Source of the DNA: Propionibacteriales bacterium
Lineage (GTDB): Bacteria > Actinomycetota > Actinomycetes > Propionibacteriales > Nocardioidaceae
Direction of reading: 5' to 3'
DNA: 64,000 bases
NCBI GenBank assembly: GCA_026392455.1
Contig: JAPLCB010000002.1
Span: 62,001 to 126,000, forward strand
This document shows positions 9,541-52,313 of the stretch, piece after piece. Below the pieces are notes generated by a model. The model was not told the origin of the DNA. It worked only from the letters and a program-made list of their open reading frames with translations, and ran no database searches. Position 1 is the stretch's first letter. Each line of letters opens with the position of its first letter. A program made the position numbers and the translations under genes.

Positions 9541-9582
9541 CTGCTGGTTGAGGTGCCGGCGCCCTCGCGCCGGCCTCGAAAC
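9541..9582 (+). repeat. REP-like palindromic repeat, intergenic copy
   Basis: ctgctggttgaggtgccggcgccctcgcgccggcctcgaaacc; same family as copies at 11.1, 32.9, 39.9-40.1 and 49.3-50.4 kb. Confidence 0.8.
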
Positions 9583-9606
9583 CTGGTCAACCCGCCCTGC
9601 TGGTGC

Positions 9607-11796
9607 CTAGGTCTCCGACCCCAGCGCCAGCGGCAGGACCGCCTCGGCCCCGGCCTGACGCAGCCAGTGCGCAGCCAGGGTCATCGACCACCCGGTCCCG
9701 ATCAGGTCGTCGACCAGCAGCACCCGCTGCCCCGCAAGGCCGGCTTCGTCGGTGAGGTCGAGCGCGTAGCGACGCGAGACGGCGGCGATCCGCTGGGCGG
9801 AGTTGGTGGCGCCCCAGCCAGTCCCGATGCCCGGGTCACGCAGGGCCACCCGGCCCAGCACCGGGATCCGGCCGGCGCGGGAGAGCCCGTCGACCAGACT
9901 GCCGACGAGCAGCGGGTGCGAGCTGGACTCGAAGCCGACGATCCCGTCGGGCCGGGGTCGCCAGTCGCGCAGGGTGGCGATCAGTCCCTCGACCAGCGCG
10001 GCCGGCACCTCCTGGTCGGGAGAACCGGGACGGAACAGGTCGCGCAGCGCCTGACCGAGACCGAGGTCGGTCAACCGGGCAACGACCCGGCCCTCCTCGG
10101 CCGGGTCAGCGATCTTGCCCTTGAGGTCGATCCCGAGGTTGGCCAGCGCGGTCGGCCACATCTTCCGGGGTTGGACGGCGACCCCGGGCCGGGTCAACCG
10201 GTCACCGGCGCCAGCGACGGTGTCGGCCGCAACGGCGGCCGAGAGCCGGAGCCCCCCGCAGTTGTCGCAGCGACCGCAGTCGACCGCACCCGGGTCGTCC
10301 AGCGCCTCGCGCAGGAACCGCATCCGGCAGCGGTCGGTGGCGACGTACTCCAGCATCAGCGCCTGCTCGTCACGCCGGGCCGCAGCGACCCGGTCGTAAC
10401 GGTCCTGCTCGTAGACCCAGTCCTGGCCGGTCGCGGTCCACCCGCCCTGGACCCGACGGACGGCGCCGTCGACGTCGAGCACCTTCAGCATCATCTCCAG
10501 GCGGCTGCGGGACAGGTCGACGTACGTCTCCAGGGTGGCCGTGGACATGGCGCCGGGGTGCTGGGCCAAGGCGGAGAGCGCGGACCGGACGTGCTGCTCG
10601 GGCGGGAAGGCCAGCGAGGCGAAGTACTTCCAGATGTCACGGTCCTCGTACGCCGGCAGCAGCACCACGGCGGCGCGGGCGTCGTCGTCCAGGCCACGCC
10701 CGGCGCGTCCCACCTGCTGGTAGTAGGCCACCGGGGACGCCGGCGCGCCGACGTTGACGACGAACCCGAGCTTGGCGTCGAACCCCATCCCCAGCGCGCT
10801 GGTGGCCACCAGCGCCTTGAGCCGTCCGGTCAGCAGGTCCTGCTCCAGGGCCTGGCGCTCGGTCGGGTCGGTCTGCCCCGAGTACGCCGCGACCTGGTGC
10901 CCGCGCTCGCGCAGGAACCCGGCGATCTCGGCCGAGGCCGCCACGGTGAGCGTGTAGATGATCCCGGAGCCGGCGAAGTCGTCGAGGTGGTCGGCCAACC
11001 AGGCCAGCCGCTCCTCGGGCCGGTGGAGCTGGAGCACCGCCAGCCCGAGCGACTCCCGGTCGAGCTCGCCGCGGAGCACCAGCACCGGCTCACCTGCTGG
11101 TTGAGGTGCAGGCGCTCTGGCGCCTGCCTCGAAACTCCGGTCAGGAGGTTGAGGTGCAGGCGCTCTGGCGCCTGCCTCGAAACCCGCGAGCTGCTCGGCG
11201 ACGTCGGCGGTCACCCGGGCGTTCGCGGTCGCCGTGGTGGCGAGCACCGGGATGCCCTCGGGCAGGTCGGCCAGCATCTGCCGGATCCGGCGGTAGTCGG
11301 GCCGGAAGTCGTGGCCCCAGTCGGAGATGCAGTGCGCCTCGTCGATGACCAGCAAACCCGCGGACTCGGTCAGCCGGGGCAGCACCTCGTCACGGAAGCC
11401 CGGGTTGTTCAGCCGCTCGGGACTGACCAGCAGGACGTCCACCTCTCCGGCCGCGATGGCCGCGTGCGACTCCTGCCACTGCTCGATGTTGGTGGAGTTG
11501 ATCGTGACGGCCTTGATGCCGGCCCGCTCGGCCGCCTCGATCTGGTTGCGCATCAGGGCCAGCAGCGGCGAGATGATCACGGTCGGGCCGGCGCCACGGG
11601 CCCGGAGGAGCGCCGTCGCGACGAAGTAGACCGCGGACTTTCCCCAGCCGGTCCGCTGGACCACCAGGGCCCGTCGGCGGTCGACCGCGAGCGCCTCGAT
11701 CGCGGCCCACTGGTCGTCGTACAGGTTGGCGGCGTCGGAGCCGACCAGCGACCGAAGGTGCTGCTCGGCCTCTGCGCGAATCTCTGCCCGGTCCAT
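9607..11796 (-). CDS. recQ: RecQ-family ATP-dependent DNA helicase with C-terminal phosphoribosyltransferase-like domain
   Basis: QRTGWGKSAVYF (motif I), DEAHCISDWGHDFRPDY (motif II), TATAN, QVGRAGR; C-terminus VLLVDDLIGTGWSMT resembles a PRPP loop. Confidence 0.92.
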   Translation of the reverse strand: MDRAEIRAEAEQHLRSLVGSDAANLYDDQWAAIEALAVDRRRALVVQRTGWGKSAVYFVATALLRARGAGPTVIISPLLALMRNQIEAAERAGIKAVTINSTNIEQWQESHAAIAAGEVDVLLVSPERLNNPGFRDEVLPRLTESAGLLVIDEAHCISDWGHDFRPDYRRIRQMLADLPEGIPVLATTATANARVTADVAEQLAGFEAGARAPAPQPPDRSFEAGARAPAPQPAGEPVLVLRGELDRESLGLAVLQLHRPEERLAWLADHLDDFAGSGIIYTLTVAASAEIAGFLRERGHQVAAYSGQTDPTERQALEQDLLTGRLKALVATSALGMGFDAKLGFVVNVGAPASPVAYYQQVGRAGRGLDDDARAAVVLLPAYEDRDIWKYFASLAFPPEQHVRSALSALAQHPGAMSTATLETYVDLSRSRLEMMLKVLDVDGAVRRVQGGWTATGQDWVYEQDRYDRVAAARRDEQALMLEYVATDRCRMRFLREALDDPGAVDCGRCDNCGGLRLSAAVAADTVAGAGDRLTRPGVAVQPRKMWPTALANLGIDLKGKIADPAEEGRVVARLTDLGLGQALRDLFRPGSPDQEVPAALVEGLIATLRDWRPRPDGIVGFESSSHPLLVGSLVDGLSRAGRIPVLGRVALRDPGIGTGWGATNSAQRIAAVSRRYALDLTDEAGLAGQRVLLVDDLIGTGWSMTLAAHWLRQAGAEAVLPLALGSET
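11094..11183 (-). repeat. Two tandem in-frame copies of the REP-like element inside recQ
   Basis: Period 48 bp (16 codons); minus-strand peptide FEAGARAPAPQPPDRS FEAGARAPAPQPAGE. Confidence 0.85.
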
Positions 11797-39661: not shown

Positions 39662-39832
39662 ATGAGCGTCGCACACCTCGAGTACCAGACCATCGAAGCA
39701 CCCTCAGCACTGACCGCCATCGCCCGGGCCGAGCAGAAGCTCGCTGACCTCTTTGGCTACTGCGACCGCCTGCACAAGGCCAACATCGAGCACGACCCGC
39801 ACTCGTGCGTGCTGTGCTTCGAACAGCGCTGA
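39662..39832 (+). CDS. Small 56-aa Cys-containing protein
   Basis: MSVAHLEYQTIEAPSALTAIARAEQKLADLFGYCDRLHKANIEHDPHSCVLCFEQR*; GGGAGG Shine-Dalgarno; terminator immediately downstream. Confidence 0.65.
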   Translation: MSVAHLEYQTIEAPSALTAIARAEQKLADLFGYCDRLHKANIEHDPHSCVLCFEQR

Positions 39833-39855
39833 CCCACCTACTTCAGCAACACCCA

Positions 39856-39892
39856 CTGTCCCCCACCCGCCGGGTGGGGGACAGTTGCTTTT
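39856..39892 (+). terminator. Rho-independent terminator
   Basis: CTGTCCCCCACCC-gcc-GGGTGGGGGACAG followed by TTGCTTTT. Confidence 0.9.
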
Positions 39893-39894
39893 CC

Positions 39895-40101
39895 CTGCCG
39901 GCTGAGGTGCAAGCCGACCCCCCTGCCGGTTGAGGTGCAAGCCGACCCCCTCTGCTGGTTGAGGTGCGAGCGGAGCGAGCCTCGAAACCCCTCAGCCACC
40001 CTGCTGGTTGAAGTGAGAGCCGCGCCCTCTGCTGGTTTGAGGTGCGAGCCGACCCCCCTGCTGGTTGAGGTGCGAGCGAAACGAGCCTCGAAACCCCTCA
40101 G
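39895..40101 (+). repeat. Cluster of about six complete or truncated REP-like elements
   Basis: Repeated ctgctggttgaggtgcgagc... units, two complete ones ending cgagcctcgaaacccctcag. Confidence 0.85.
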
Positions 40102-40889
40102 TACCCCAGCGTCCGCAAGTACGACTCCCCCAGCTCGCTGGCACCCCAGATGGTGATCAGCGCGCCGAGGATCATGAACGGTCCGAACGGCACCGCCGTC
40201 TTCCGGTCCGCCTTCTTCGCGACCAGCAGCGCGACCCCGATGATCGACCCCAGGACGAAGCCCAGGAACGACCCGATCAGGAAAGCTCCCCAGGACAGGT
40301 AGCCCAGGACGCCACCCACGACCCCGGCAAGCTTCACGTCCCCGAACCCCATGCCGCCCGGAGCCAGCATCGCGATCAGGAAGAAGAACGCGAACAGCGA
40401 CGCCGCCGCGATCAGGGCCCGCAGCAGCGCGTCCCCGTCACCACCGATGGCCAGCAGCAAAGCCAGCACCGGGTACGCCGGCAGCACCAGCACGTTCGGC
40501 AGACGTCGTACGTCCAGGTCGATCAGGGTCAGCGCGATCCCCAGCGCGACAAAGGTCAGGTACGCCGGCAGCAGCCGCGGCTCGTCGGCGAACCGGACCG
40601 CCGTGCCCGCGAACGCCAACCCGGTACCCAGCTCCACCAACGGGTACCGCGCACTGAACGGCTCGGCACAGTCGAAGCACTTGCCCCGCAGGACCAACCA
40701 GCCGACGACCGGGATGTTGTGCCGGTTGCGGATCGGGGCGTCGCAGTTCGGGCAGTGCGACGGCGGGTTCGCCACCGACTCCCCCCGCGGTACGCGGTAC
40801 GCGACCACGTTGAGGAAGGAGCCGATGGCGAGGCCGAGGAGGCCGGCGAAGATCGCGGTGACGAGCGTCTCCGCCTGGTCGGTGCTCAG
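40098..40889 (-). CDS. pilD: Prepilin peptidase (A24)
   Basis: GSFLNVVAYRVPRGE, zinc CPNCDAPIR...CFDC, GMGFGDVKLAGVVG. The conserved N-terminus requires a start upstream of the track's GTG 40808; CTG 40889 proposed. Confidence 0.88.
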   Translation of the reverse strand: MSTDQAETLVTAIFAGLLGLAIGSFLNVVAYRVPRGESVANPPSHCPNCDAPIRNRHNIPVVGWLVLRGKCFDCAEPFSARYPLVELGTGLAFAGTAVRFADEPRLLPAYLTFVALGIALTLIDLDVRRLPNVLVLPAYPVLALLLAIGGDGDALLRALIAAASLFAFFFLIAMLAPGGMGFGDVKLAGVVGGVLGYLSWGAFLIGSFLGFVLGSIIGVALLVAKKADRKTAVPFGPFMILGALITIWGASELGESYLRTLGY

Positions 40890-42607
40890 CGCTGCGCACT
40901 CCAGCCAAGCACTTCAACGCCACCCGGAGTTGCTGACTTGGCTCGTATTGCCCCTTGCAGATCTGGATCAACACCTGTCGAGCAACTGTTCGCTCCGGGG
41001 CAAACGAACACCCTCAAATAGTATGCATTAACCGCTGGGAAAGGATTCGGGGCCGAATCTGGAACATCGATTAGGTCGTTGCTGACATCTGCACTATTCG
41101 AACCGTTGAACTCAACTCCACGGGCTATAAGTCCCCAAAAGAACAGTTTCTTCGACCTATTGTTCAATCCGATAGATATCACGCCACGCGTTACGTATGT
41201 TGTGCCCTTGATCGTCAGAATTGCCTTTGGCGAGTACCCCGAACTAATTACTGCGCAACTCGTTCCTGACGCAGGAGCTAGCGCACCCTGAGGAACACAG
41301 TCAGCTAACGGGTTCGAACTAGAAGCCTTTAGTCCGTAGATCGCAATCGGAGGACCGCTTGCTGAGTTCGAGGCGCAAATCGTGGCGTGCGCTCCTGGGT
41401 CGCCGTTCTCATTGACTGCGATCCGGGAACTTCCGCCCATAACAAAATTTACGCCGGACGTGGTAGTTGCTCCAGCGCTACCCGGACCGAAGCACGCGTT
41501 AAATCCGCGGAAGTTGGCCCCGTACTCCGTTCCGTCACCCCAGCCGGACGGATCCGCCGCGGGACTTGCATTGGCAGCATCAAAGGTGCCGGCCACAACG
41601 TAACCCTTTGGGACGTTCCAAACCGAAGGGATATTGAAGTGGTAGATACCAGGCTTAAACCAGATGACCTTGTTGGTGCATCCTGTCAATGCATCAAGCT
41701 CCGCCAACCCAGCCATGCCGACGAATGCACCCGGCGAAACTGATTGATACTTTTTCCCTGCGGCGCATGGATTCGGGGTTGTACTGGTTACGATCGAACA
41801 GCTGGCATGATTCGCGGACGGTGGATCAGAGGCTGTAAAGCCAGTGCAAGAGCGAATGACCGGCGGCGAAAGAGGTAGAGCAGGCTGGTCATAGGACGCT
41901 CCGTGCGGGGTCAGGGTCCCCGGATCTTCGCCACGAATATCCGGCGCACTCGAACTGGGTCCCAACTCGCATTTCTGTGTGCCGACATACTGGATTGTTA
42001 GATCCCCGGTGCAGAAGCCTCGGGCCAAGTTGTATGTCGTGCCAACCACTGGCGCAATAGCCCTCCACGTATTGGTCAACCCGCCTGGAACCCGAATATC
42101 CGAGTTGGAGAAAACTCCACCTCTGATTCGAACGGGACCTTTACCTACGTTCGCATAGATCCCGGGTTCGCCAGTCGCAGTGCCGAGGGCAAGCAAAGCG
42201 CTCCCAGGACTGGTGTTCGCAGCCAATGGGTCGCCGCCGGAACCAAGGTTCGTCAAATCAGGTCGACATTCAATGGTGGCGGACATAGCTGGGGTGCCAA
42301 CGCCCGCGGGGTAGAAGTTAGTCAAGTTCTTCGTCGTCGTTCCAGTTCCAGAGCAGAGTGCACCTGGCGCAAAGTTCCCAGACGTCAATCTGACTTGGTT
42401 CACGGCGTACTGGGCCGCACTATCGGCCGCGTACGACGCCGCAGACTGCTTGCGCAGACCCACCGTTGCGGCTGTGTTGGTGAATGACTGGCTCAGCAGT
42501 GCTCCCACTACCAGCGCGACACCAGTAATTATGAACATTGCCAATAGCAGAGTGGCACCAGAATCGTTCTTGGCTCGCCTAGAATATTCCACGACTAAAC
42601 CATTCAC
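40886..42607 (-). CDS. Large prepilin-like minor pilus protein (PilX-like N-terminus, possible tip adhesin)
   Basis: 573 aa; N-terminal DSGATLLLAMFIITGVALVVGALLSQSF then a long Ser/Thr/Gly/Cys-rich ectodomain; inside the pilus cluster. Confidence 0.65.
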   Translation of the reverse strand: MNGLVVEYSRRAKNDSGATLLLAMFIITGVALVVGALLSQSFTNTAATVGLRKQSAASYAADSAAQYAVNQVRLTSGNFAPGALCSGTGTTTKNLTNFYPAGVGTPAMSATIECRPDLTNLGSGGDPLAANTSPGSALLALGTATGEPGIYANVGKGPVRIRGGVFSNSDIRVPGGLTNTWRAIAPVVGTTYNLARGFCTGDLTIQYVGTQKCELGPSSSAPDIRGEDPGTLTPHGASYDQPALPLSPPVIRSCTGFTASDPPSANHASCSIVTSTTPNPCAAGKKYQSVSPGAFVGMAGLAELDALTGCTNKVIWFKPGIYHFNIPSVWNVPKGYVVAGTFDAANASPAADPSGWGDGTEYGANFRGFNACFGPGSAGATTTSGVNFVMGGSSRIAVNENGDPGAHATICASNSASGPPIAIYGLKASSSNPLADCVPQGALAPASGTSCAVISSGYSPKAILTIKGTTYVTRGVISIGLNNRSKKLFFWGLIARGVEFNGSNSADVSNDLIDVPDSAPNPFPAVNAYYLRVFVCPGANSCSTGVDPDLQGAIRAKSATPGGVEVLGWSAQR

Positions 42608-43233
42608 GTCTGCCTCCGCTGACCGAGGAGTGTGACCGTGTACGGATCTCCTCTATTTGAACTATCTTTGACCGTAAACTTGAGATTGATTGTCGATCCG
42701 CCGAGTCCGGTTTGACCGCACGCCCCAACTGTGTAGGCACCGCCACTAATACTGCATTGGATAGTGCCCGCCTCGACGTTTCGCGCAAGTGTCGCGACCG
42801 ATGAACCAATCGCACCGCAGGTAGTCCGCACAAGGTGAGTTCCCTGCTCAGCGGTGGAGTATGTAACGCGAGCGATAGTCGAACCGCCGTCGAGCTCGTA
42901 TTTCACCCAACTCATGGTGATGATCTTTGAAGAGCCCGGCGTTCCACAGTTATCTGCGTCAATGTTGAGTGCATTCGCTGGCGCACCACTTGAGTCTCGT
43001 CGCCCGACGCTCGAAACATCCTGTTGCCAGTACGCTGCGGCAATTTGCTGATCTTTAGACTCATTCAGCCGAGCGCCTACCTTAGCGCCGTTCAACAGGA
43101 ACGAGATCACGGCTGCACTCAATGGCCCCGCGATGAGACCAAGGATTGTTATCGCCACAAGGAGTTCAGGGAGGGTGAATCCCTCTTCGTTACGGAACCG
43201 GCGCACTAGCAACCAACTCCCCCTGCTACGCAT
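42604..43233 (-). CDS. Type IV prepilin-like protein (PilW-like)
   Basis: Class III signal EEGFTLPELLVAITILGLIAGPLSAAVISF; start uncertain. Confidence 0.75.
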   Translation of the reverse strand: MRSRGSWLLVRRFRNEEGFTLPELLVAITILGLIAGPLSAAVISFLLNGAKVGARLNESKDQQIAAAYWQQDVSSVGRRDSSGAPANALNIDADNCGTPGSSKIITMSWVKYELDGGSTIARVTYSTAEQGTHLVRTTCGAIGSSVATLARNVEAGTIQCSISGGAYTVGACGQTGLGGSTINLKFTVKDSSNRGDPYTVTLLGQRRQT

Positions 43234-43670
43234 GGCCTGCGAACGTAAATCCAGATTCGCTCGTCTACCTTCAAATTCACTGAGCTCACTTGGATCTGCA
43301 TTCTTTGGATACCGCCGGATTGGGGACAACTCGCCCACACAGGGGTGTCGGTTTTCGCGGAGTCTCGTGTTGCACATTCAGCCGTACCGGGTACAACGCC
43401 TGCAGTGAGTCCTGTGTCTCCTGGGACGGTGAAGTTGTAGGTCCCGTTCTCGTTGTAGTTCCCCATCGCCACGTCGGTCTGAATTTTTTCGGCGAAGTTC
43501 CTCACCGCAGTGGCAGCCGTGGACTGACGGCGATCAATTCCCGACACCTTCGTTGTCAGGCCGAAGGCTCCAAGGATCGATACCGCAGCGAACCCAAGAA
43601 TTACGACCGATATCAGCACTTCAAGGAGCGTCTCACCTCGATCGTCGCTCGCTGAACGCCCGGCGAGCAT
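43206..43670 (-). CDS. Type IV prepilin-like protein (PilV-like)
   Basis: DDRGETLLEVLISVVILGFAAVSILGAFG. Confidence 0.75.
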   Translation of the reverse strand: MLAGRSASDDRGETLLEVLISVVILGFAAVSILGAFGLTTKVSGIDRRQSTAATAVRNFAEKIQTDVAMGNYNENGTYNFTVPGDTGLTAGVVPGTAECATRDSAKTDTPVWASCPQSGGIQRMQIQVSSVNLKVDERIWIYVRRPCVAGGVGC

Positions 43671-44881
43671 CAGACCTCCACCTGATTGAAGACGCCGTAC
43701 ATGGCAGAAACCAGGGCGACAGCAACAAAGCCCACGATCAGTCCCATGAAAACGATAATCATTGGCTCAAACAGTGCTGTCAGCTTATTGATCTTGTAGT
43801 TGAGTTCCACCTCATAGTACTCCGCGGTGACTTGGAGTTGCTGATCCAGCGAGCCAGTTTCCTCACCGACGCGGAGCATCTGGGTCGCAGTACCCGGAAA
43901 TAGATTGGTGCGGGCTAGTGGTGTCGCGATCCCCTGACCTTCGAGCATCGCTTCCGCGACCTCGCTGAGGCGGCGAATGTAGACCCTATTCTTCAGCGAT
44001 TCCGTGGAGACACGCAGGGCCTCAGGCAGGTTGACACCGGCGCCCACCATCGAGGACAGCACCCGGCAGAAACGTTCCACAAGCGCGTACTGGATCGTCT
44101 CACCGAGGACCGGAACTTTCAGAAATAGTGCATCCCGGGCGTATTTGGCTCCTTCGAAGCGCAACGCGACCCAGGTCACGAGCGCCAGCAGGGCGGCTCC
44201 ACCCAGCAGCGCCCACCAGTAGGCACCCAGGAAGTCGGTGGCACCCAGCAGCATCCTGGTCGGCAGCGGCAGCTCAGCGTCGAGGCTGTCGAAGAAGTCC
44301 TTGAACTTCGGCAGCACGTACACAGCGAGCACCCCGACAGTGACCACCGACATCACAGCGATCACCGCGGGATAGATGGTCGCCGACTTGATCTTGCGAC
44401 GCGCCTCCAGATCCCGCTCGAGGTAGAGCGCCAGCTGCGCGAGCACCACGTCGAGCTCACCAGTCAGCTCCGCCGACCGAACGATGCCCCGGTAGAAGTC
44501 CGGGAAGGTCTTCGGATGCTTGTCCAGGCAGTCCGAGAAGCGCTCGCCCGTGCGGAGCCCGTCCTCGATCTCGTTCATCATCCGCCGGACCGAGGAGTTC
44601 TCCGACTCGGCACCGATCGAGTGCACCGCGTCGAGGATCGGCAGACCAGCGCGGAGGAAGGCCGCCATCTGACGGGACAAGTGCATGATCTCGTCGCGGC
44701 TGATCCGCGGCCCGGTGATCTCGAGCTGGAGGATGCTGACCTTCTCGGTCACCTTCAGGTCGCGGATCTGCTGCTCGTACAGGGCAACCTCGGCGTCGCT
44801 GCGACTTCCAGCCTTGGCAGTCCCCTTGACCGGTGAGCCGTCCAGGGTGGTTCCGACGTACGCGAACTTGGGCATCCTCAA
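43670..44881 (-). CDS. pilC: Type IV pilus inner-membrane platform protein PilC/GspF
   Basis: 403 aa; FLRAGLPILDAVHSIGAES, FPDFYRGIVRSAELTGELDVVLAQLALYLE. Confidence 0.92.
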   Translation of the reverse strand: MRMPKFAYVGTTLDGSPVKGTAKAGSRSDAEVALYEQQIRDLKVTEKVSILQLEITGPRISRDEIMHLSRQMAAFLRAGLPILDAVHSIGAESENSSVRRMMNEIEDGLRTGERFSDCLDKHPKTFPDFYRGIVRSAELTGELDVVLAQLALYLERDLEARRKIKSATIYPAVIAVMSVVTVGVLAVYVLPKFKDFFDSLDAELPLPTRMLLGATDFLGAYWWALLGGAALLALVTWVALRFEGAKYARDALFLKVPVLGETIQYALVERFCRVLSSMVGAGVNLPEALRVSTESLKNRVYIRRLSEVAEAMLEGQGIATPLARTNLFPGTATQMLRVGEETGSLDQQLQVTAEYYEVELNYKINKLTALFEPMIIVFMGLIVGFVAVALVSAMYGVFNQVEV

Positions 44882-46614
44882 ACTCCTGCGACGTAGATCG
44901 AGCGCATCACTTCAGTGGCGGTCGTGGTGCCGGCGCTGACCAGACGCACTGCTTGCTCCTGCAAGGTCTGCATGCCCTGGCTGATCGCCAGCTTGCGCAT
45001 CTCCTCGTGGGGGACCCGGTCGACGATCAGCTCACGGACCTCGTCGGTCACCACCAGCAGCTCGTAGACCCCGATCCGGTCGAGGTAGCCGGTGTTGGCG
45101 CAGAAGTTGCAGCCAACCCCGTGCTGGAAGCCACCGATCGGCTCCTGGCCTCCGAAGGTTCGAAGGAAGTCCATCTCGTCCGGGGACGGTGTGTAGGTCT
45201 CCAGACAGGAGGTGCAACTGCGACGCACCAGACGCTGTGCCATCACGGCCGTCACCGACGAGGCGATCAGGAAGGGCTCGATCCCCATGTCCAGAAGCCG
45301 GTAGAGCGCCGAAACCGACTCTGTCGCGTGCAGCGAGGAGAGCACGAAGTGACCGGTGAGCGCGGACTGAACAGCGATCCGCGCGGTGTCGACGTCTCGG
45401 ACCTCGCCGACCAGGATCACGTCGGGGTCCTGACGCAGGATGGCCTTGAGACCACCGGTGAAGGTGACGCCGGCCTGCTCGTTGATCTGGATCTGGTTGA
45501 TCGAGTCGAAGGTGTACTCGACCGGGTCCTCGATCGTCATGATGTTGCGGTCGACGCTGTTCAGCTCGCCGAGCGAGGCATAGAGCGTGGTGGTCTTGCC
45601 ACCACCAGTGGGCCCGGCGCAGATCACCATGCCGTAGGGCGACCGGATCAGGGCGCTGTACCGCTCCGCCGTGTCCGGGGGCATGCCGAGCTGAGCGAGC
45701 TGGAAGAGCGGCCGGCTCTTGTCGAGCAGCCGCATCACGACCTTTTCGCCTCCGACAACCGCTGTGGTCGCAACCCGGATGTCGACGCCGCGCCCTTCGA
45801 CCTCCATGCTGATCTGACCGTCCTGGGAGCGACGCCGCTCGACGATGTTGAGCTCGGCGAGGATCTTGACCCGGCTGACCACCGCCGGCCCGATCGAGCC
45901 CGGGAGATCGAGCACCTCGGAGAGGGCACCATCGATCCGGTAGCGGACCCGGACCCGGTCACCGAAGGGTTCGATGTGAACGTCGGACGCCCGGTCACGC
46001 AGGGCCTGGGTGATGATCATCTGAACGACCCGGACGACTGGCGCCTCATCGCTGGCGTTGGCTTCCTCGAGCCTGGAGGCCTCCAGGCGCATCGCGTCCC
46101 GAGCCTCGAACTCCTTGACCTGGGAGACGACGTCCTTGGTGACGCTGTAGGCGCTGCCCATGGCGCGCTGGAGGTCGCGTCGTGTCGCGACCACGACCCT
46201 GATCTGCTGACCGATCGCCGCAGCGACCGAATTCAGGTGCTCGGGCGACGGGTCGATGACGGCGACCGTCACAGCCTGGTCGTCCATCGCGATGGGCAAC
46301 GCCTGCAGCGACGCGGCCTGGTCTGCTGTCAGTGCGGCCAGCGCCTCCGGAGCTGCGACCACGGACCGGAAGTCAAGAAGCGGGAAGCCGGACTTCTCCG
46401 CGAGGACACCGGCCAGCTCGGCATCACTGATCGAGCCTCGCGCGATCAGCCGTTCGGCCAACCCACCGCCGCCGGTTCCCAGGAGCGCAGCATCGACCTC
46501 AGCCCGGCTGACCTTGCCGGAGTCGACCAGGGTTGCCGCCAGCTGAACGTCCCGCTGGGTGCTGGACGGCCCGACCGGCTTGTCGTCTACGTGCTTGCGG
46601 CGACCGATCTTCAT
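44878..46614 (-). CDS. pilB: Type IV pilus assembly ATPase PilB/GspE
   Basis: 578 aa; CAGPTGGGKTTTLYASL, VGEVRDVDTARIAVQSALTGHFVLSSLHA; CTSC/C..C zinc motif. Confidence 0.94.
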   Translation of the reverse strand: MKIGRRKHVDDKPVGPSSTQRDVQLAATLVDSGKVSRAEVDAALLGTGGGGLAERLIARGSISDAELAGVLAEKSGFPLLDFRSVVAAPEALAALTADQAASLQALPIAMDDQAVTVAVIDPSPEHLNSVAAAIGQQIRVVVATRRDLQRAMGSAYSVTKDVVSQVKEFEARDAMRLEASRLEEANASDEAPVVRVVQMIITQALRDRASDVHIEPFGDRVRVRYRIDGALSEVLDLPGSIGPAVVSRVKILAELNIVERRRSQDGQISMEVEGRGVDIRVATTAVVGGEKVVMRLLDKSRPLFQLAQLGMPPDTAERYSALIRSPYGMVICAGPTGGGKTTTLYASLGELNSVDRNIMTIEDPVEYTFDSINQIQINEQAGVTFTGGLKAILRQDPDVILVGEVRDVDTARIAVQSALTGHFVLSSLHATESVSALYRLLDMGIEPFLIASSVTAVMAQRLVRRSCTSCLETYTPSPDEMDFLRTFGGQEPIGGFQHGVGCNFCANTGYLDRIGVYELLVVTDEVRELIVDRVPHEEMRKLAISQGMQTLQEQAVRLVSAGTTTATEVMRSIYVAGV

Positions 46615-46630
46615 GACGTACGTCCCCTAC

Positions 46631-47740
46631 TCACAGACTGGCGCCGGCGGTGAAACGTGCGCGGGCTTCAATGTCCTTCGGGTACAGGCTACGTGCGACC
46701 GCTTCCTCCTCGGACACGATTCCCTGTTGAACCAGGGCGGACAGGGACTGCTCCAAGGTGACCATGCCTTCGCGGGACCCGGTCAGCAGCGAGTTGCGGA
46801 GCTGGTGGGTCTTGTCCTCCTTGATCAGGTTCCGGACGGCCGAGTTCGCGATGAGCACCTCGTAGGCCGCGACCATGCCCCCGCCGATCCGCGGGATCAG
46901 ACGCTGGTAGACGACGGCGCTCAGGGCCGAGGCCAACTGGACCCGGATCTGGGCCTGCTGTTCCGCCGGGAAGACGTCGATCATCCGGCCCAGGGACTGG
47001 GCGGTGTCGTTGGTGTGCAGAGTGGCGAAGACCAGGTGGCCGGTCTCGGCAACGGTCAGGGCGAAGGCGATCGACTCGAGGTCACGCATTTCGCCGACCA
47101 GCAGGACGTCGGGGTCCTCACGGAGCACCGAGCGGAGCGCCTTGTGGAAGGTCCCGGTGTCGGTACCGACCTCGCGCTGGTTGACGGCCGACCGCTTGTG
47201 GTCGTGCACGTACTCGATCGGGTCCTCGATGGTGATGATGTGGCACGCCCTGTTCTCGTTGATCAGGTTGATCAACGAGGCCAGCGTCGTGGACTTACCG
47301 GAGCCCGTGGGACCGGTCACCAGGATCAGGCCCTGGTGGGTCATGGCGAGCTCGCGCAGGATGGCCGGAAGTCCAAGGGAGTCCGGAGTCGGGATCTCGC
47401 GCGGGATCATCCGCAGCGCGATCGCGGTGACGCCGCGCTGGGTGAAAGCGTTGCCACGGATCCGGGCGTGCTCGCGCCAGGAGAAGGAGAAGTCGTACTC
47501 GTGCTCGTTGCGCCAAACGTCGGCCTGCTCGGGGGTGAGGACCTCGGCCAGCAGGGCGTCGGACTCCGCCGCCGTCAGAGGGGATTCACCCTCGATCGGG
47601 CGCAGCTCGCCGCCGACCCGGAGCATCGGCGGCAGACCAACCGTGATCATCAGGTCGGTTCCGCGGACGTTCCAGAGTGCTTCGAGCAGGCGGTCGATGC
47701 GGTCACCGATGCGGTGCGGGTGGTGGAACACGGCGTTCAC
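46631..47740 (-). CDS. pilT: Type IV pilus retraction ATPase PilT
   Basis: 369 aa; VTGPTGSGKSTTLASLINLIN, GEMRDLESIAFALTVAETGHLVFATLHTNDTAQSLGRMIDVFPAEQQ. Confidence 0.94.
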   Translation of the reverse strand: MNAVFHHPHRIGDRIDRLLEALWNVRGTDLMITVGLPPMLRVGGELRPIEGESPLTAAESDALLAEVLTPEQADVWRNEHEYDFSFSWREHARIRGNAFTQRGVTAIALRMIPREIPTPDSLGLPAILRELAMTHQGLILVTGPTGSGKSTTLASLINLINENRACHIITIEDPIEYVHDHKRSAVNQREVGTDTGTFHKALRSVLREDPDVLLVGEMRDLESIAFALTVAETGHLVFATLHTNDTAQSLGRMIDVFPAEQQAQIRVQLASALSAVVYQRLIPRIGGGMVAAYEVLIANSAVRNLIKEDKTHQLRNSLLTGSREGMVTLEQSLSALVQQGIVSEEEAVARSLYPKDIEARARFTAGASL

Positions 47741-47800
47741 TCTCCTGAGATGGCGGTAGGAGGGCCGCCTCGTCGGCGACCCTCCTACGGCATGGGAAAA

Positions 47801-48145
47801 TCAGCAGTCGGCAATGTCCTTGATCGTCGGCGCCGCACCAGCGTTGTAGGTGATGTAGTCGGTTCCCGGGTCCGTCTTCAAGAAGCCAGGAACAATGTCG
47901 GCGGTGGCCTGCGGATAGGCCGGCGGGTTCGCCTGGGCGTAGAAGGCCTCAACAGCAACTTCGACCGAAGCGACGGTCGCCTTGCAGGCGCTCTTGTCGC
48001 CACGGTCCGTGATGCCGGCGACCGAGAACACCACGATGCCGGCGAGGATGCCGAGGATCACGATGACGATCAGGAGCTCGATGAGGGTGAAGCCAGACTC
48101 GTTCTTGCGAGCGGCGCGCGCCCGGGTCACAGCACTGCTGAGCAT
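47801..48145 (-). CDS. pilA: Major type IV prepilin
   Basis: ESGFTLIELLIVIVILGILAGIVVFSVAGI; ATG 48145 with GGAG upstream. Confidence 0.92.
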   Translation of the reverse strand: MLSSAVTRARAARKNESGFTLIELLIVIVILGILAGIVVFSVAGITDRGDKSACKATVASVEVAVEAFYAQANPPAYPQATADIVPGFLKTDPGTDYITYNAGAAPTIKDIADC

Positions 48146-48411
48146 GTGTATCTCCATTTTGGTTTCTTGCAGCTCTAGCGCTGCGACGGAAGGTGTTGTA
48201 GACGCTAACGAGCGTGTCAGACCTGGGTGATGCGAAACGGACAAGTCGGATATTCGGTCTAGGCCGCTCAGCCGTGTTGTGACGTTTTTTTGGCAAGAAG
48301 CGCTGTTGTGTGCTGGGGGAAGGTCTTTTGCCTCTAGGCAGGGATGAAGGCGAAAAAGGTCACAAGATCTGCGCGTGGTCCTTGATATTTCGCGAGTGTT
48401 AACTCTCGCCG

Positions 48412-50790
48412 TTAACTACGCTGCGGCGCGTCCTTGACCGGGTCGGCGTACACCACGGAGTTCGACAGGTACACGGTCCCGTTGAAGTCGCTGCAGGTGA
48501 TCAGCACCAGTCGCCCCGCGCGCGTCTGGTCGAAGATCTCCTTCGCCGTCCGGGCCAGGACGTCCACCGGCACGTCGCGCACCTGACGGACGACGTAGTC
48601 GATGGTGCCCGCAGCGGTCCGGACCTTGATCTTGTCGCCGGGGACCAGCTTGCCGAGCTGGTCGAAGGCGCCACCGCCGGTGCTGACGGTGTGCCCGGTG
48701 ACGACCGCCGAACCTGCCGCCGAGCCGACCCCGGATCCCTCCTGCCACCAACCCAGGATCTGCGGGTTGTTCGGCGGCAGCAGCGACCCTGACTGGCCGC
48801 TGATCGGCACCACCGACGAGTTCACCTTCAAGCGCGGGACGGTGACCTCGAGCGGGGTGCCAGCCGATCGCAGGCGCTTCCCGAGCAGCGGGTTGTCCGG
48901 CTTGGCGGTGACCGAGGGCTGCGGTTCCGGGGGGGCGATCGACGGCTCGACCGTCACCGGCGTCCTGGTCTGCTCCGGGACCGCCTCGGCGAAGAGGTCC
49001 GGGATCTGCGGGACGGCCCAGGGCAGTGCCACGCAGAGCGCCGCCACCGCGACCCAGGCCCCAATCCGGACGCCGCGGCGTCGGGCGGACTCGGGGAGTG
49101 GCTGGAGCCAGGCCTCGTCAACCTCGTGGAAGATCGGCGTTGGAAGCAGCGGGGGCGTCGGGAGGACCAGGTCCGGGTCAAGGTCGAAGACCGGCCGGAG
49201 CGTGGTGGGGGCGTCGTCGACGAGAATCGGGGGCGGGAGGACGACCAGGGGCGGGGTCAGCGCAGGCTCGGGGGCTTCTGCGGGCGGGTCTTCGTGGTTT
49301 CGAGACGGTTGCTGCGCAACCTCCTCAACCAGCACAGACGGGGCGACCTCCTCAGCGGGCAGAGAGGTGGCGACCTCCTCAGCGGGCAGGGGGGTGGAAA
49401 CGTCCTCAGCCGGCAGGGGGGTGGCAACCTGATCAACCGGCAGGCGGTCGAGGGGCTCGATGTCGGGCTGGACCTCTGCGGCCCGCGCCGCGGAGTCGGC
49501 CGGGACGACGTACGTGGTCAACGGGCGCACTGGCTCCTGGCCCGGAATCGGGAGCGGGAGCTTCGCGAGCAGGACGCGTCCCGAAGGCTCGGGAGGCAGA
49601 ACCGGGTCGAGCTTCGGTGTCGGCTCCGCAACGTCCAGCCCGTGCGCGGGGGAGGCGGGGGTAGCGATGGGATCGGTAGCCGGTTCGTCTGGGAGGTTTC
49701 GAGACGGTTGCTGCGCAACCTCCTCAACCAGCAGAGACGGGGCGGCGTCCTCAACCGGCAGAGGGGTGGCGACGTCCTCGACCGGCGGAGTGGTGGGGGG
49801 CTCGGCGGGATCGATGTCGGCCTGGACCTCCGCGAACTCGGCCGCGGCGTCCGGCGGGACGACGTACGTCGTCAGCGGAGGCGCGGGCTCCAGGTCCGGT
49901 GCTGGCTCCGCAATCACGGAGGCTTCGGGGGATTCGAGGGCTGCTGCGGGCGGCTCGACGGGGTTTCGAGACGGTTGCTGCGCAACCTCCTCAACCAGCA
50001 GAGACGTGGCAATCTCCCCAACCGGCAGAGAGGTGGCGACCTCCTCTACCAGCAGAGACGGGGCAACCTCCCCAACCGGCACGGGGGTGGCAACGTCCTC
50101 AACCGGCACCGGCTTCGGACGCCGCCGCCAGCGACGTCCGGCCGGCTTCTTCTCCGGCGGCGCGCCCGCGGGAGGTGCGCCGGCTTCGTCGTCCGGGGTC
50201 CAGTTCCACAAGCGGCCCACCGGGACGCCGTTCTCGTCGACCGCGGCCTCCGGGACCACGTCGCGGATGACGTCCTGGACGAGGTCGGCCAGGGTTGCCG
50301 CGGGAGCTGGCTCGGGTGCGGACCAGAGGACGCCGACGGGGGTGGGGGGGTTCGCTGGGGGTGGGGGGTTTCGAGGCAGGCCCGAGGGGGCCTGCTCCTC
50401 AACCAGCAGAGGCGCGGTCTCCGAGGGGGCCTGCTCCTCAACCAGCAGAGACGCGGTCTCCGAGGGGGCCTGCTCCTCAACCAGCAGAGGCACGGTCTCC
50501 GAGGGGGCCTGCTCCTCGACCAGCAGGGACGCGGTCTCCGAGGGGCCCTGTTCCTCGACCAGCAGGGGCGCGGTCTCCGAGGGGCCCTGTTCCTCGACCG
50601 GCAGCGGCGGGGCGGGGGGTGGCCGATCGCCGGGGGCCGGGGGAGTCCAGGACCAGAGCTTGCCGAGCGGCTCAGGGTCGCCAGCGGCAGCCAGGGGAGT
50701 CGTTACCGGCGCAGCCGGGGTCGCCACAGCGCTGGGGCTCCCGTTCCTGGGAACCTCAGCGCTTCCTCCCCGCTTCTTGCGCCGCGCCAT
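48412..50790 (-). CDS. Sortase (class E/F-like) with very long repeat-rich N-terminal extension
   Basis: 792 aa; C-terminal VTVPRLKVNSSVVPI...VVTGHTVSTGGGAFDQLGKLVPGDKIKV...LVLITCSDFNG; single TM GAWVAVAALCVALPWAVPQIP preceded by LLVEEVAQQPSRN / LLVEEQAPSET repeats. Confidence 0.85.
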   Translation of the reverse strand: MARRKKRGGSAEVPRNGSPSAVATPAAPVTTPLAAAGDPEPLGKLWSWTPPAPGDRPPPAPPLPVEEQGPSETAPLLVEEQGPSETASLLVEEQAPSETVPLLVEEQAPSETASLLVEEQAPSETAPLLVEEQAPSGLPRNPPPPANPPTPVGVLWSAPEPAPAATLADLVQDVIRDVVPEAAVDENGVPVGRLWNWTPDDEAGAPPAGAPPEKKPAGRRWRRRPKPVPVEDVATPVPVGEVAPSLLVEEVATSLPVGEIATSLLVEEVAQQPSRNPVEPPAAALESPEASVIAEPAPDLEPAPPLTTYVVPPDAAAEFAEVQADIDPAEPPTTPPVEDVATPLPVEDAAPSLLVEEVAQQPSRNLPDEPATDPIATPASPAHGLDVAEPTPKLDPVLPPEPSGRVLLAKLPLPIPGQEPVRPLTTYVVPADSAARAAEVQPDIEPLDRLPVDQVATPLPAEDVSTPLPAEEVATSLPAEEVAPSVLVEEVAQQPSRNHEDPPAEAPEPALTPPLVVLPPPILVDDAPTTLRPVFDLDPDLVLPTPPLLPTPIFHEVDEAWLQPLPESARRRGVRIGAWVAVAALCVALPWAVPQIPDLFAEAVPEQTRTPVTVEPSIAPPEPQPSVTAKPDNPLLGKRLRSAGTPLEVTVPRLKVNSSVVPISGQSGSLLPPNNPQILGWWQEGSGVGSAAGSAVVTGHTVSTGGGAFDQLGKLVPGDKIKVRTAAGTIDYVVRQVRDVPVDVLARTAKEIFDQTRAGRLVLITCSDFNGTVYLSNSVVYADPVKDAPQRS
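49296..50630 (-). repeat. REP-like elements embedded in the sortase reading frame
   Basis: Full copies ggtttcgaga(c)..ctcctcaaccagcag at 49296, 49695, 49962 and 50367, with reiterated partial units between and beyond them. Confidence 0.85.
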
Positions 50791-50918
50791 GTCCTCACCC
50801 TGTACCGGAGGGATTCCCGTGCTCCCTCTGCTGCCCTAAAAGTAACGCTGGGAGCGACGTTGCGGAGAGTTAACTCCGAACGCCGCTCCCAGCGTTGCTA
50901 CTTCAGTGCTGTGCTAGA

Positions 50919-52004
50919 TCAGCTGCGAACCCGTCGGGCCGAGCCGATGCCGAAGGCACCAGCCATGACCATCAGAGCCATACCGCTCACCAGCAGGGCC
51001 AGGCCCTGCTCGCCGCGGAGGTCCTGAGCGGAGACCAGACCGGACTCGACAACCGTCGGGGTGATGATCGGGTCCGGCGGGTTGACGATGGTGCAACCGA
51101 CGATCGGGCTACCGAAGGTGTGCTCGAACTCCTGCGTGAGCGACTCGTCGTCGAAGGTGAAGCCTTCGTTCGCCGTCGCCGTGTAGACGACCGACTCACC
51201 CGCAGCAACGGTGCCGGAGGTCAACTCGACCGTGGCGTCGGCCTCGGTCACCTCGGCGCCCGGGGTGTTGTCGTTCGCGCAGCTCGGGTCGATGAAGCTG
51301 ACCGAAGCGGAGGCGATGCCCGGAGGGTTGGTCTCGGCGCACGGCGGGACGTTCGGGTCGATCTCGTCGTCGAACGAGAACTCGAAGTCCTGCGTGGTCG
51401 CGCCACCGGCGAACTCGGCGTCGTTGATCGCGGTCGCGGTGATCACGAGGTCCGAACCCGGAGTCGCTTCGCCGGACTTGATCGAGAACTCGACGTTCTT
51501 GCCCTCGGCGTCGTACTCGGCGCGGTCGGGGAACTCGCAGGTCGGACCGAAGAAGTCGACCTCGGCGAACGCCAGCGGGACCTCCGGCGGGCTGACTTCG
51601 CCCTCACAGGTGGCCTCGGTGATGACACCGTCGTAGGTGTGCTTGACGCCGTCGCTGTCGACGTAGTCGCCGATGCGGTCCTTCTTCAGGTCGCCGGCCT
51701 CGTGCTCAACCCCGTTGAAGGTGCCGTCGTTCTGCCACTTCTTGTTCGGGTCCTCACGGTGCATCAGGTGACCCTTGAACTTCGTCGAGTCGTCGTCGAC
51801 GGTGATGAAGATGAAGGGGTTGCTGTCGGAGCTCGTGGCGTGGCAGACATTCACCGGAGTGTGTCCTTCGCCCTTCACGGCTGCGTTCGCCGGCGAGGCG
51901 ACCATCAGCGCGACGCCGCTGGACATCACCAGCAGGCCGGATACGCCGAAGGCCGTTGCCAGGCGACGGAGCGTCGTCTTCTTTGGTGCGTGTGACCGCT
52001 TCAT
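50919..52004 (-). CDS. Secreted/cell-surface anchored protein
   Basis: Signal peptide; VNVCHATSSDSNPFIFITVDDDSTKFKGHLMHREDPNKKW; repeated Ig-like segments; C-terminal TM + RRVRS tail. Confidence 0.75.
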   Translation of the reverse strand: MKRSHAPKKTTLRRLATAFGVSGLLVMSSGVALMVASPANAAVKGEGHTPVNVCHATSSDSNPFIFITVDDDSTKFKGHLMHREDPNKKWQNDGTFNGVEHEAGDLKKDRIGDYVDSDGVKHTYDGVITEATCEGEVSPPEVPLAFAEVDFFGPTCEFPDRAEYDAEGKNVEFSIKSGEATPGSDLVITATAINDAEFAGGATTQDFEFSFDDEIDPNVPPCAETNPPGIASASVSFIDPSCANDNTPGAEVTEADATVELTSGTVAAGESVVYTATANEGFTFDDESLTQEFEHTFGSPIVGCTIVNPPDPIITPTVVESGLVSAQDLRGEQGLALLVSGMALMVMAGAFGIGSARRVRS

Positions 52005-52313
52005 CGTGTTTACCCCAAGACTCTCTTTGATCGTTGTCCTCATGTGGCCCCCCGCGGCCGGTGAGTCCCCGTCCCCCTCATTGAGGACGAAAACCCGTCA
52101 TCCACGCTCGCTGAGCAGCGGTTGACTACCCATGACAACGCTGTGACCCCCATTCAGGCCACTCGCCTGTGTGACAGGTCTAGGCCAGGGAATGTCCACA
52201 AGCCCCTATTTGGGCGTAAATGTCTGAATCATGAGGGATATCAGCGTCCGGTCAGACAGATTTGTCACACGCCTGTCGCTCGCGTCATCGGAGCTGACTG
52301 AGAGTGTGGGGTC

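Follow-up and report, generated by a model that had tools for sequence, protein, structure and literature searches.

In-frame entry and expansion of an intergenic REP in a sortase gene: a probable case of a genus-wide process in the Nocardioides group

Results

The sortase gene at 48412-50790 (minus strand) of the window, i.e. of the whole stretch of 64,000 nucleotides from a Propionibacteriales bacterium that was analysed, carries several arrays of a short palindromic repeat in the part encoding its N-terminal tail. We consider it very likely that this repeat, a normally intergenic REP, entered the gene in frame at least twice and expanded there by tandem partial units and by duplication, and that the resulting tail is one case of a process that operates throughout the genus.

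The gene forms a single reading frame from 50790 to 48412, with GGGTGAGG ahead of its ATG, and encodes a protein of 792 aa whose N-terminal region is long and disordered. Its catalytic domain (aa 649-785, 48436-48846, on the minus strand like all features of this gene) matches the Pfam family Sortase (PF04203) with 68 bits at a curated cut-off of 26.6, and the TGHT and LITC motifs are conserved in the orthologue alignment. The best sortase class in NCBIfam is class F, however with 66.7 bits against a cut-off of 166, so that we call the enzyme class F-like only and give it no class. A hydropathy scan predicts a single transmembrane segment at about aa 573-597 (49000-49074). The tail (aa 1-565) contains 21% proline, has a net charge of -63 and, judging from hydropathy and the type II topology, is probably cytoplasmic; several orthologues possess an additional N-terminal hydrophobic stretch. 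At the expected position of the catalytic arginine, which we take to be Y-x-S-N-x-VV near the C-terminus, leucine, arginine or glutamate is found across the window protein (48412-48846) and its orthologues, so the catalytic set may vary.

A 40-mer that the earlier note had seen three times in this frame is present at 49695 and 49962 (40/40 each) and, with one mismatch, at 49296 (39/40), compared with 0 matches in 100 shuffles, and the variant seen at 50367 has a longer stem (GGTTTCGAGGCAGGCCCGAGGGGGCCTGCTCCTCAACC). In the protein, LLVEEVAQQPSRN occurs three times, once as VLVEE, along with six 13-residue units of the LLVEEQAPSETA type. The copies belong to four arrays, each of which is built from partial units with one full REP as the last element in the reading direction. 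Array I (aa 60-141, 50368-50613) consists of six 13-codon units followed by the long-stem variant (50367-50404; TRF period 39, 5.8 copies, 0% indels). The other three consist of 9-codon units followed by the full REP, namely array II (aa 227-277, 49960-50112, REP at 49962-49996; period 27, 4.7 copies, 0% indels), array III (aa 334-366, 49693-49791, REP at 49695-49729; period 27, 2.8 copies) and array IV (aa 449-499, 49294-49446, REP at 49296-49330; period 27, 4.8 copies). Of the about 565 residues that precede the transmembrane segment, the arrays encode 217 (38%), the remainder being the W-motif and other linker sequence. It was therefore an overstatement that the N-terminal region is assembled from REPs, although the arrays themselves are real.

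The four full copies do not represent four independent insertions, since the same duplicated flank lies upstream of both array III and array IV. The LTTYVV segments upstream of array III (aa 306-333, 49792-49875) and array IV (aa 424-448, 49447-49521) have 78% DNA identity, and the REPs of the two arrays are 35/35 identical. A single insertion plus duplication can account for several of the copies. Array I, in turn, ends in a different REP, so at least two insertions into the gene are required.

The periods within the gene are 27, 27, 27 and 39 without indels, whereas the intergenic array of the window has a period of 28-29 with indels, in agreement with the in-frame expansion that had been proposed. 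With a strict half-site motif, 8/8 spacings in the coding arrays but only 8/32 intergenic spacings are multiples of 3 (Fisher P=1.7e-4, in a test that treats the spacings as independent, which they are not).

Counting the element genome-wide had been proposed in the earlier note. A search of the whole genome with the pattern GGTTTCGAGRC-N(4-40)-CTCAACC resulted in 103 copies, and the reversed pattern, used as control, gave 0. The copies are mostly 33 or 38 bp long and share the consensus GGTTTCGAG[AG]C, a variable stem-loop and CTCAACC-[AG]GCAG. Despite differing bases, 82% of the inner stem positions pair in 28 distinct 38-bp copies; pairing in the 33-bp copies is weaker (66%). Folding of single in-gene copies as DNA is mostly no stronger than that of shuffles, so the palindromic nature of the element is deduced from stem variation and copy number. 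The copies are found in 47 unidirectional, 29 convergent and 4 divergent contexts, 12 in genes and 8 at contig ends. By size (a REP being an imperfect palindrome of 20-40 bp in many copies), copy number, stem and gene context, the element is a REP-type palindrome. Its ends (GGTTTCGAG and CTCAACC-RGCAG) carry neither the GTAG nor the CGTC tag of known REPs, and Rfam has no family for it in the window region 39800-51000. The transposase RAYT (Y1_Tnp, PF01797) was found in 0/24 genomes of the genus, with 5/14 control genomes positive. The element family is present in many Nocardioidaceae genomes with very uneven copy numbers, including some whose sortase is without it.

The identity of the in-gene element with an intergenic repeat, as claimed before, holds: an exact 35-mer of the sortase gene (35/35) is also intergenic on two other contigs (C3:331178 and C10:3381), which indicates that the direction was from element into gene. 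Within the window, the claim that the element is otherwise intergenic applies to a copy between convergent genes (9546-9583, minus strand) and to 39957-40095, in an array of the same build, i.e. full REP and partial units (39893-40101, minus strand), but a further copy at 11147-11184 is located inside a gene for a RecQ-like helicase.

Eight congeners possess a sortase that is 50-67% identical over the aligned C-terminal region. The upstream gene is shared at these loci (weakly in L078), and genes for a prepilin and PilT follow downstream in L071, L072 and L075. Eight orthologues have long open N-terminal regions, and total length ranges from 299 to 1226 aa. The earlier note had named as evidence against its idea an LLVEE region shared by related species without nucleotide similarity to the intergenic element; LLVEE is found in none of the eight congener sortases. 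In G019, whose sortase is the closest orthologue, the conserved ends of the tail (GVLWTWTP and RPLFKLDPDLVLAPPALLPAPIF) correspond to those of the window protein, and the arrays appear as alignment gaps; the GxLWxWTP motifs, which occur ahead of and between the arrays, and RPxFxLDPDLVL, which follows them, also match this orthologue. The tails in G015, G007 and G008 are free of REPs, and tails such as that of G015 contain tandem repeats unrelated to REPs. The tail in Nocardioides marmorisolisilvae KIS18-7 (G018), by contrast, contains a different REP, TGGTTGAGCCTGTCGAAAC, in frame as LVEPVET, and this REP has 102 copies in its genome.

The entry of REPs into genes is not limited to the sortase but is a genus-wide process in the Nocardioides group of soil bacteria. 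According to gene calls from a simple codon-usage model made for this analysis, 12 of 101 copies in the genome of the window lie wholly inside genes, 4 in the sortase gene and 8 in eight others, which by Pfam encode RibD, a PadR regulator, methylmalonyl-CoA mutase, a kinase-like protein, an ABC-F-type ATPase, a VWA protein, a carboxyl transferase beta subunit and the RecQ-like helicase. In N. marmorisolisilvae this applies to 41 of 100 copies of its REP, about 15 of which are no further than some 30 codons from either end of a gene, so that the choice of start or stop could matter there. Ten of these 41 genes were checked by Pfam and include those for topoisomerase I, class II ribonucleotide reductase, methylmalonyl-CoA mutase and an ABC-F-type ATPase, and for the latter two the inserts are near the same place in both genomes. 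The in-gene copies of N. marmorisolisilvae are read as LVEPVET in 20 cases, as VSTGST in 17 and in the other three open frames in 4, so that two of the five open frames account for 37/41 (P=3e-11 for frames of equal likelihood). REP-encoded peptides include LVEPVET, VSTGST and LLVEEVAQQPSR, and in each of the two genomes examined no gene is more heavily loaded than that of the sortase. The PadR-type regulator (L135, 2474-3142, plus strand) and the kinase-like protein (L162, 2101-3624, minus strand) have small coding arrays of the same build as those of the sortase, with a REP and 10- or 12-residue units (for example LAPQPAAEHP), in a frame other than that of the sortase.

Two genes illustrate how the same site may be empty or differently filled. 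The helicase gene (9607-11796, minus strand) contains a double REP insert of 30 aa (aa 205-234; full REP at 11147-11184). In most congeners this site is empty (DVAEQLG-x-DVLVLRG), in G004 and G016 it is filled by GGTTTCGAGACGGGCC..., in G008 by two other units and in G015 by an LVSTSST insert. In the carboxylase linker, different repeats are present in different species. Both sites are in-frame insertions into conserved genes with empty sites in relatives, as known for Rickettsia palindromic elements (RPEs), and the likeness to these that had been suggested at the outset is borne out by such empty sites and by the other decorated genes. Comparison with the closest solved chain of topoisomerase I (6pcm) places the REP peptide at a small insertion, and the insert of methylmalonyl-CoA mutase is located just outside the part aligned to a solved chain; the carboxylase was also compared with a solved chain. 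A second, unrelated palindrome of 42 bp (CGTCATACG...CGTATGACG) occurs in several congeners, at L186 (2310-2351) and L191, which are the carboxylase linkers of G006 and G011, and also at L219 and L222, so this linker is one site used by two element families. In L193 (G013), the carboxylase linker is about 38 residues long and is made up of a head-to-head pair of REP-like units.

Discussion

In the explanation that we favor, a REP would have landed in a stretch coding for a disordered, acidic and proline-rich tail ahead of the transmembrane segment. Partial units might then have been copied in tandem, 27 or 39 bp at a time, by slippage or recombination, and part of the array region may have been duplicated together with its flank. 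If only those changes survived that kept the frame, arrays of 217 residues could have been built up. In general, REPs would rarely land in genes and would persist at insertion-tolerant linkers, loops, tails and termini that are disordered or at the surface, mostly in hydrophilic frames, and the same sites would be struck independently in different species by different REPs. By this account, the REP inserts would be nearly neutral. A pN/pS of 0.39 among the 13-codon units is in favor of the explanation; a pN/pS of 0.79 in the 9-codon units, which indicates little purifying selection, counts against it, as does the lack of a Y1 transposase as mobilizer in the 24 genomes.

In this explanation, the tail would be translated. 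It is quite improbable that the real start is located further down near the transmembrane segment and that the arrays are an intergenic REP array, open by chance. Such an array of the same build does exist, and since the opposite strand of this G+C-rich stretch has long open frames as well, openness alone is a weak proof of coding. Moreover, arrays II-IV have codon-usage scores close to zero, like non-coding DNA, which is expected of a recent non-coding origin but equally of untranslated DNA. However, indel-free periods of 27 and 39 are not those of the intergenic array, the GxLWxWTP and RPxFxLDPDLVL motifs around the arrays match the orthologue in G019, the N-terminal regions are long and open in eight orthologues, and REPs are in frame in well-conserved enzymes elsewhere. 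The likeness of gene and element might also be a coincidence, or the element might have been born in the gene and have spread outward, for which one could point to the tandem repeats unrelated to REPs in congener tails such as that of G015. The probability of this is negligible, as the genome-wide distribution already refutes it: the 35-mer is identical to two intergenic copies, the 103 copies have diverse stems, and the family occurs in many other Nocardioidaceae, among them genomes with a sortase that lacks it.

It is somewhat less improbable, but still unlikely, that the tail has been domesticated, i.e. that selection acts on its acidic, proline-rich REP peptides because they themselves have a function, for instance in spacing the enzyme from the membrane or in partner binding. 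The heavy load of the sortase in both genomes and the preference for hydrophilic frames would fit such a role, as would the pN/pS of 0.39 in the 13-codon units. On the other hand, length and content of the tail vary widely across the orthologues, the REP-free tails in G015, G007 and G008 imply that the REP peptide itself is not required, and tolerance alone accounts for the pattern. Beyond the entry and expansion of a tolerated REP, one could tentatively imagine that the REPs of this genus form an active mobile family which is RAYT-free and, with no stop in five of six frames, compatible with residence within genes, and that they enter the hydrophilic frames of a restricted number of permissive sites over and over, thereby constantly supplying otherwise conserved enzymes with new linkers and tails; we regard this as possible but rather doubtful.

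The principle is known from RPEs and intragenic REPs, and the element presented here is a different one. As described in PMC2229807 and PMC10969869, RPEs (Ogata et al. 2000, 2002) are about 105-150 bp long and occur in obligate intracellular alphaproteobacteria. By this description, they share with our element that a small palindromic repeat is both intergenic and intragenic, in frame in genes of conserved proteins and apparently tolerated. The element of the Nocardioides group is set apart by its size of 33-38 bp, its free-living, G+C-rich actinobacterial host and its arrays of tandem partial units. GTAG and CGTC REPs (Di Nocera et al. 2013, PMC3733652) are stem-loops that are located mainly in unidirectional and convergent gaps, with some inside ORFs. 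Intragenic clusters of them encode 43-82 aa, different REPs occupy about the same recB site in two Xanthomonas species, and CGTC REPs have no dedicated transposase. Our element is likewise REP-sized, has the same gap preference with some copies inside ORFs and, like CGTC REPs, is without a Y1 transposase (24 genomes). It differs in its lack of either tag, in the total of 217 aa of the sortase arrays and in the intragenic share in N. marmorisolisilvae. PARCEL, the palindromic amphipathic repeat coding sequence of Mollicutes and other microbes, is, as far as its description in PMC2996958 goes, also a palindromic repeat that is read as protein and reiterated within genes; by the same description it is a repeat of coding sequence, whereas our REP is mainly intergenic.

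To judge from the title of Ogata 2002, as cited in PMC2229807, protein-coding palindromes once appeared unique to Rickettsia. They were later reported in several other groups, none of them actinobacterial (PMC3733652), and Actinobacteria are absent from the phyla listed there. The open literature gave nothing relevant on actinobacterial or Nocardioides intragenic palindromes, which is weak evidence as subscription papers are mostly outside such a search, and nothing useful on sortase tails. As far as we have seen, it is new that this element family occurs in genes and that the phylum is one with such a case; also new are how heavily one protein is loaded, how large the intragenic share of one species is, and that the same sites are filled repeatedly.

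We thus describe an actinobacterial genus with many protein-coding palindromes, which vary from one close species to another and have struck the same sites in parallel. Since alleles of the same conserved enzymes with the insert, with an empty site and with another filling are found across the genus, the cost, the benefit and the choice of frame become directly measurable, and several carriers of such alleles are named type strains. The sortase tail would also be an example of a disordered protein tail that grows quickly from selfish DNA.

A minor observation concerns the gene upstream of the sortase (50919-52043, minus strand). An LPXTG-type motif was not seen in its product and NCBIfam gave no match; the product has a C-terminal hydrophobic segment and an arginine-containing tail, like a sortase substrate, and the gene is retained at most of the orthologous loci.
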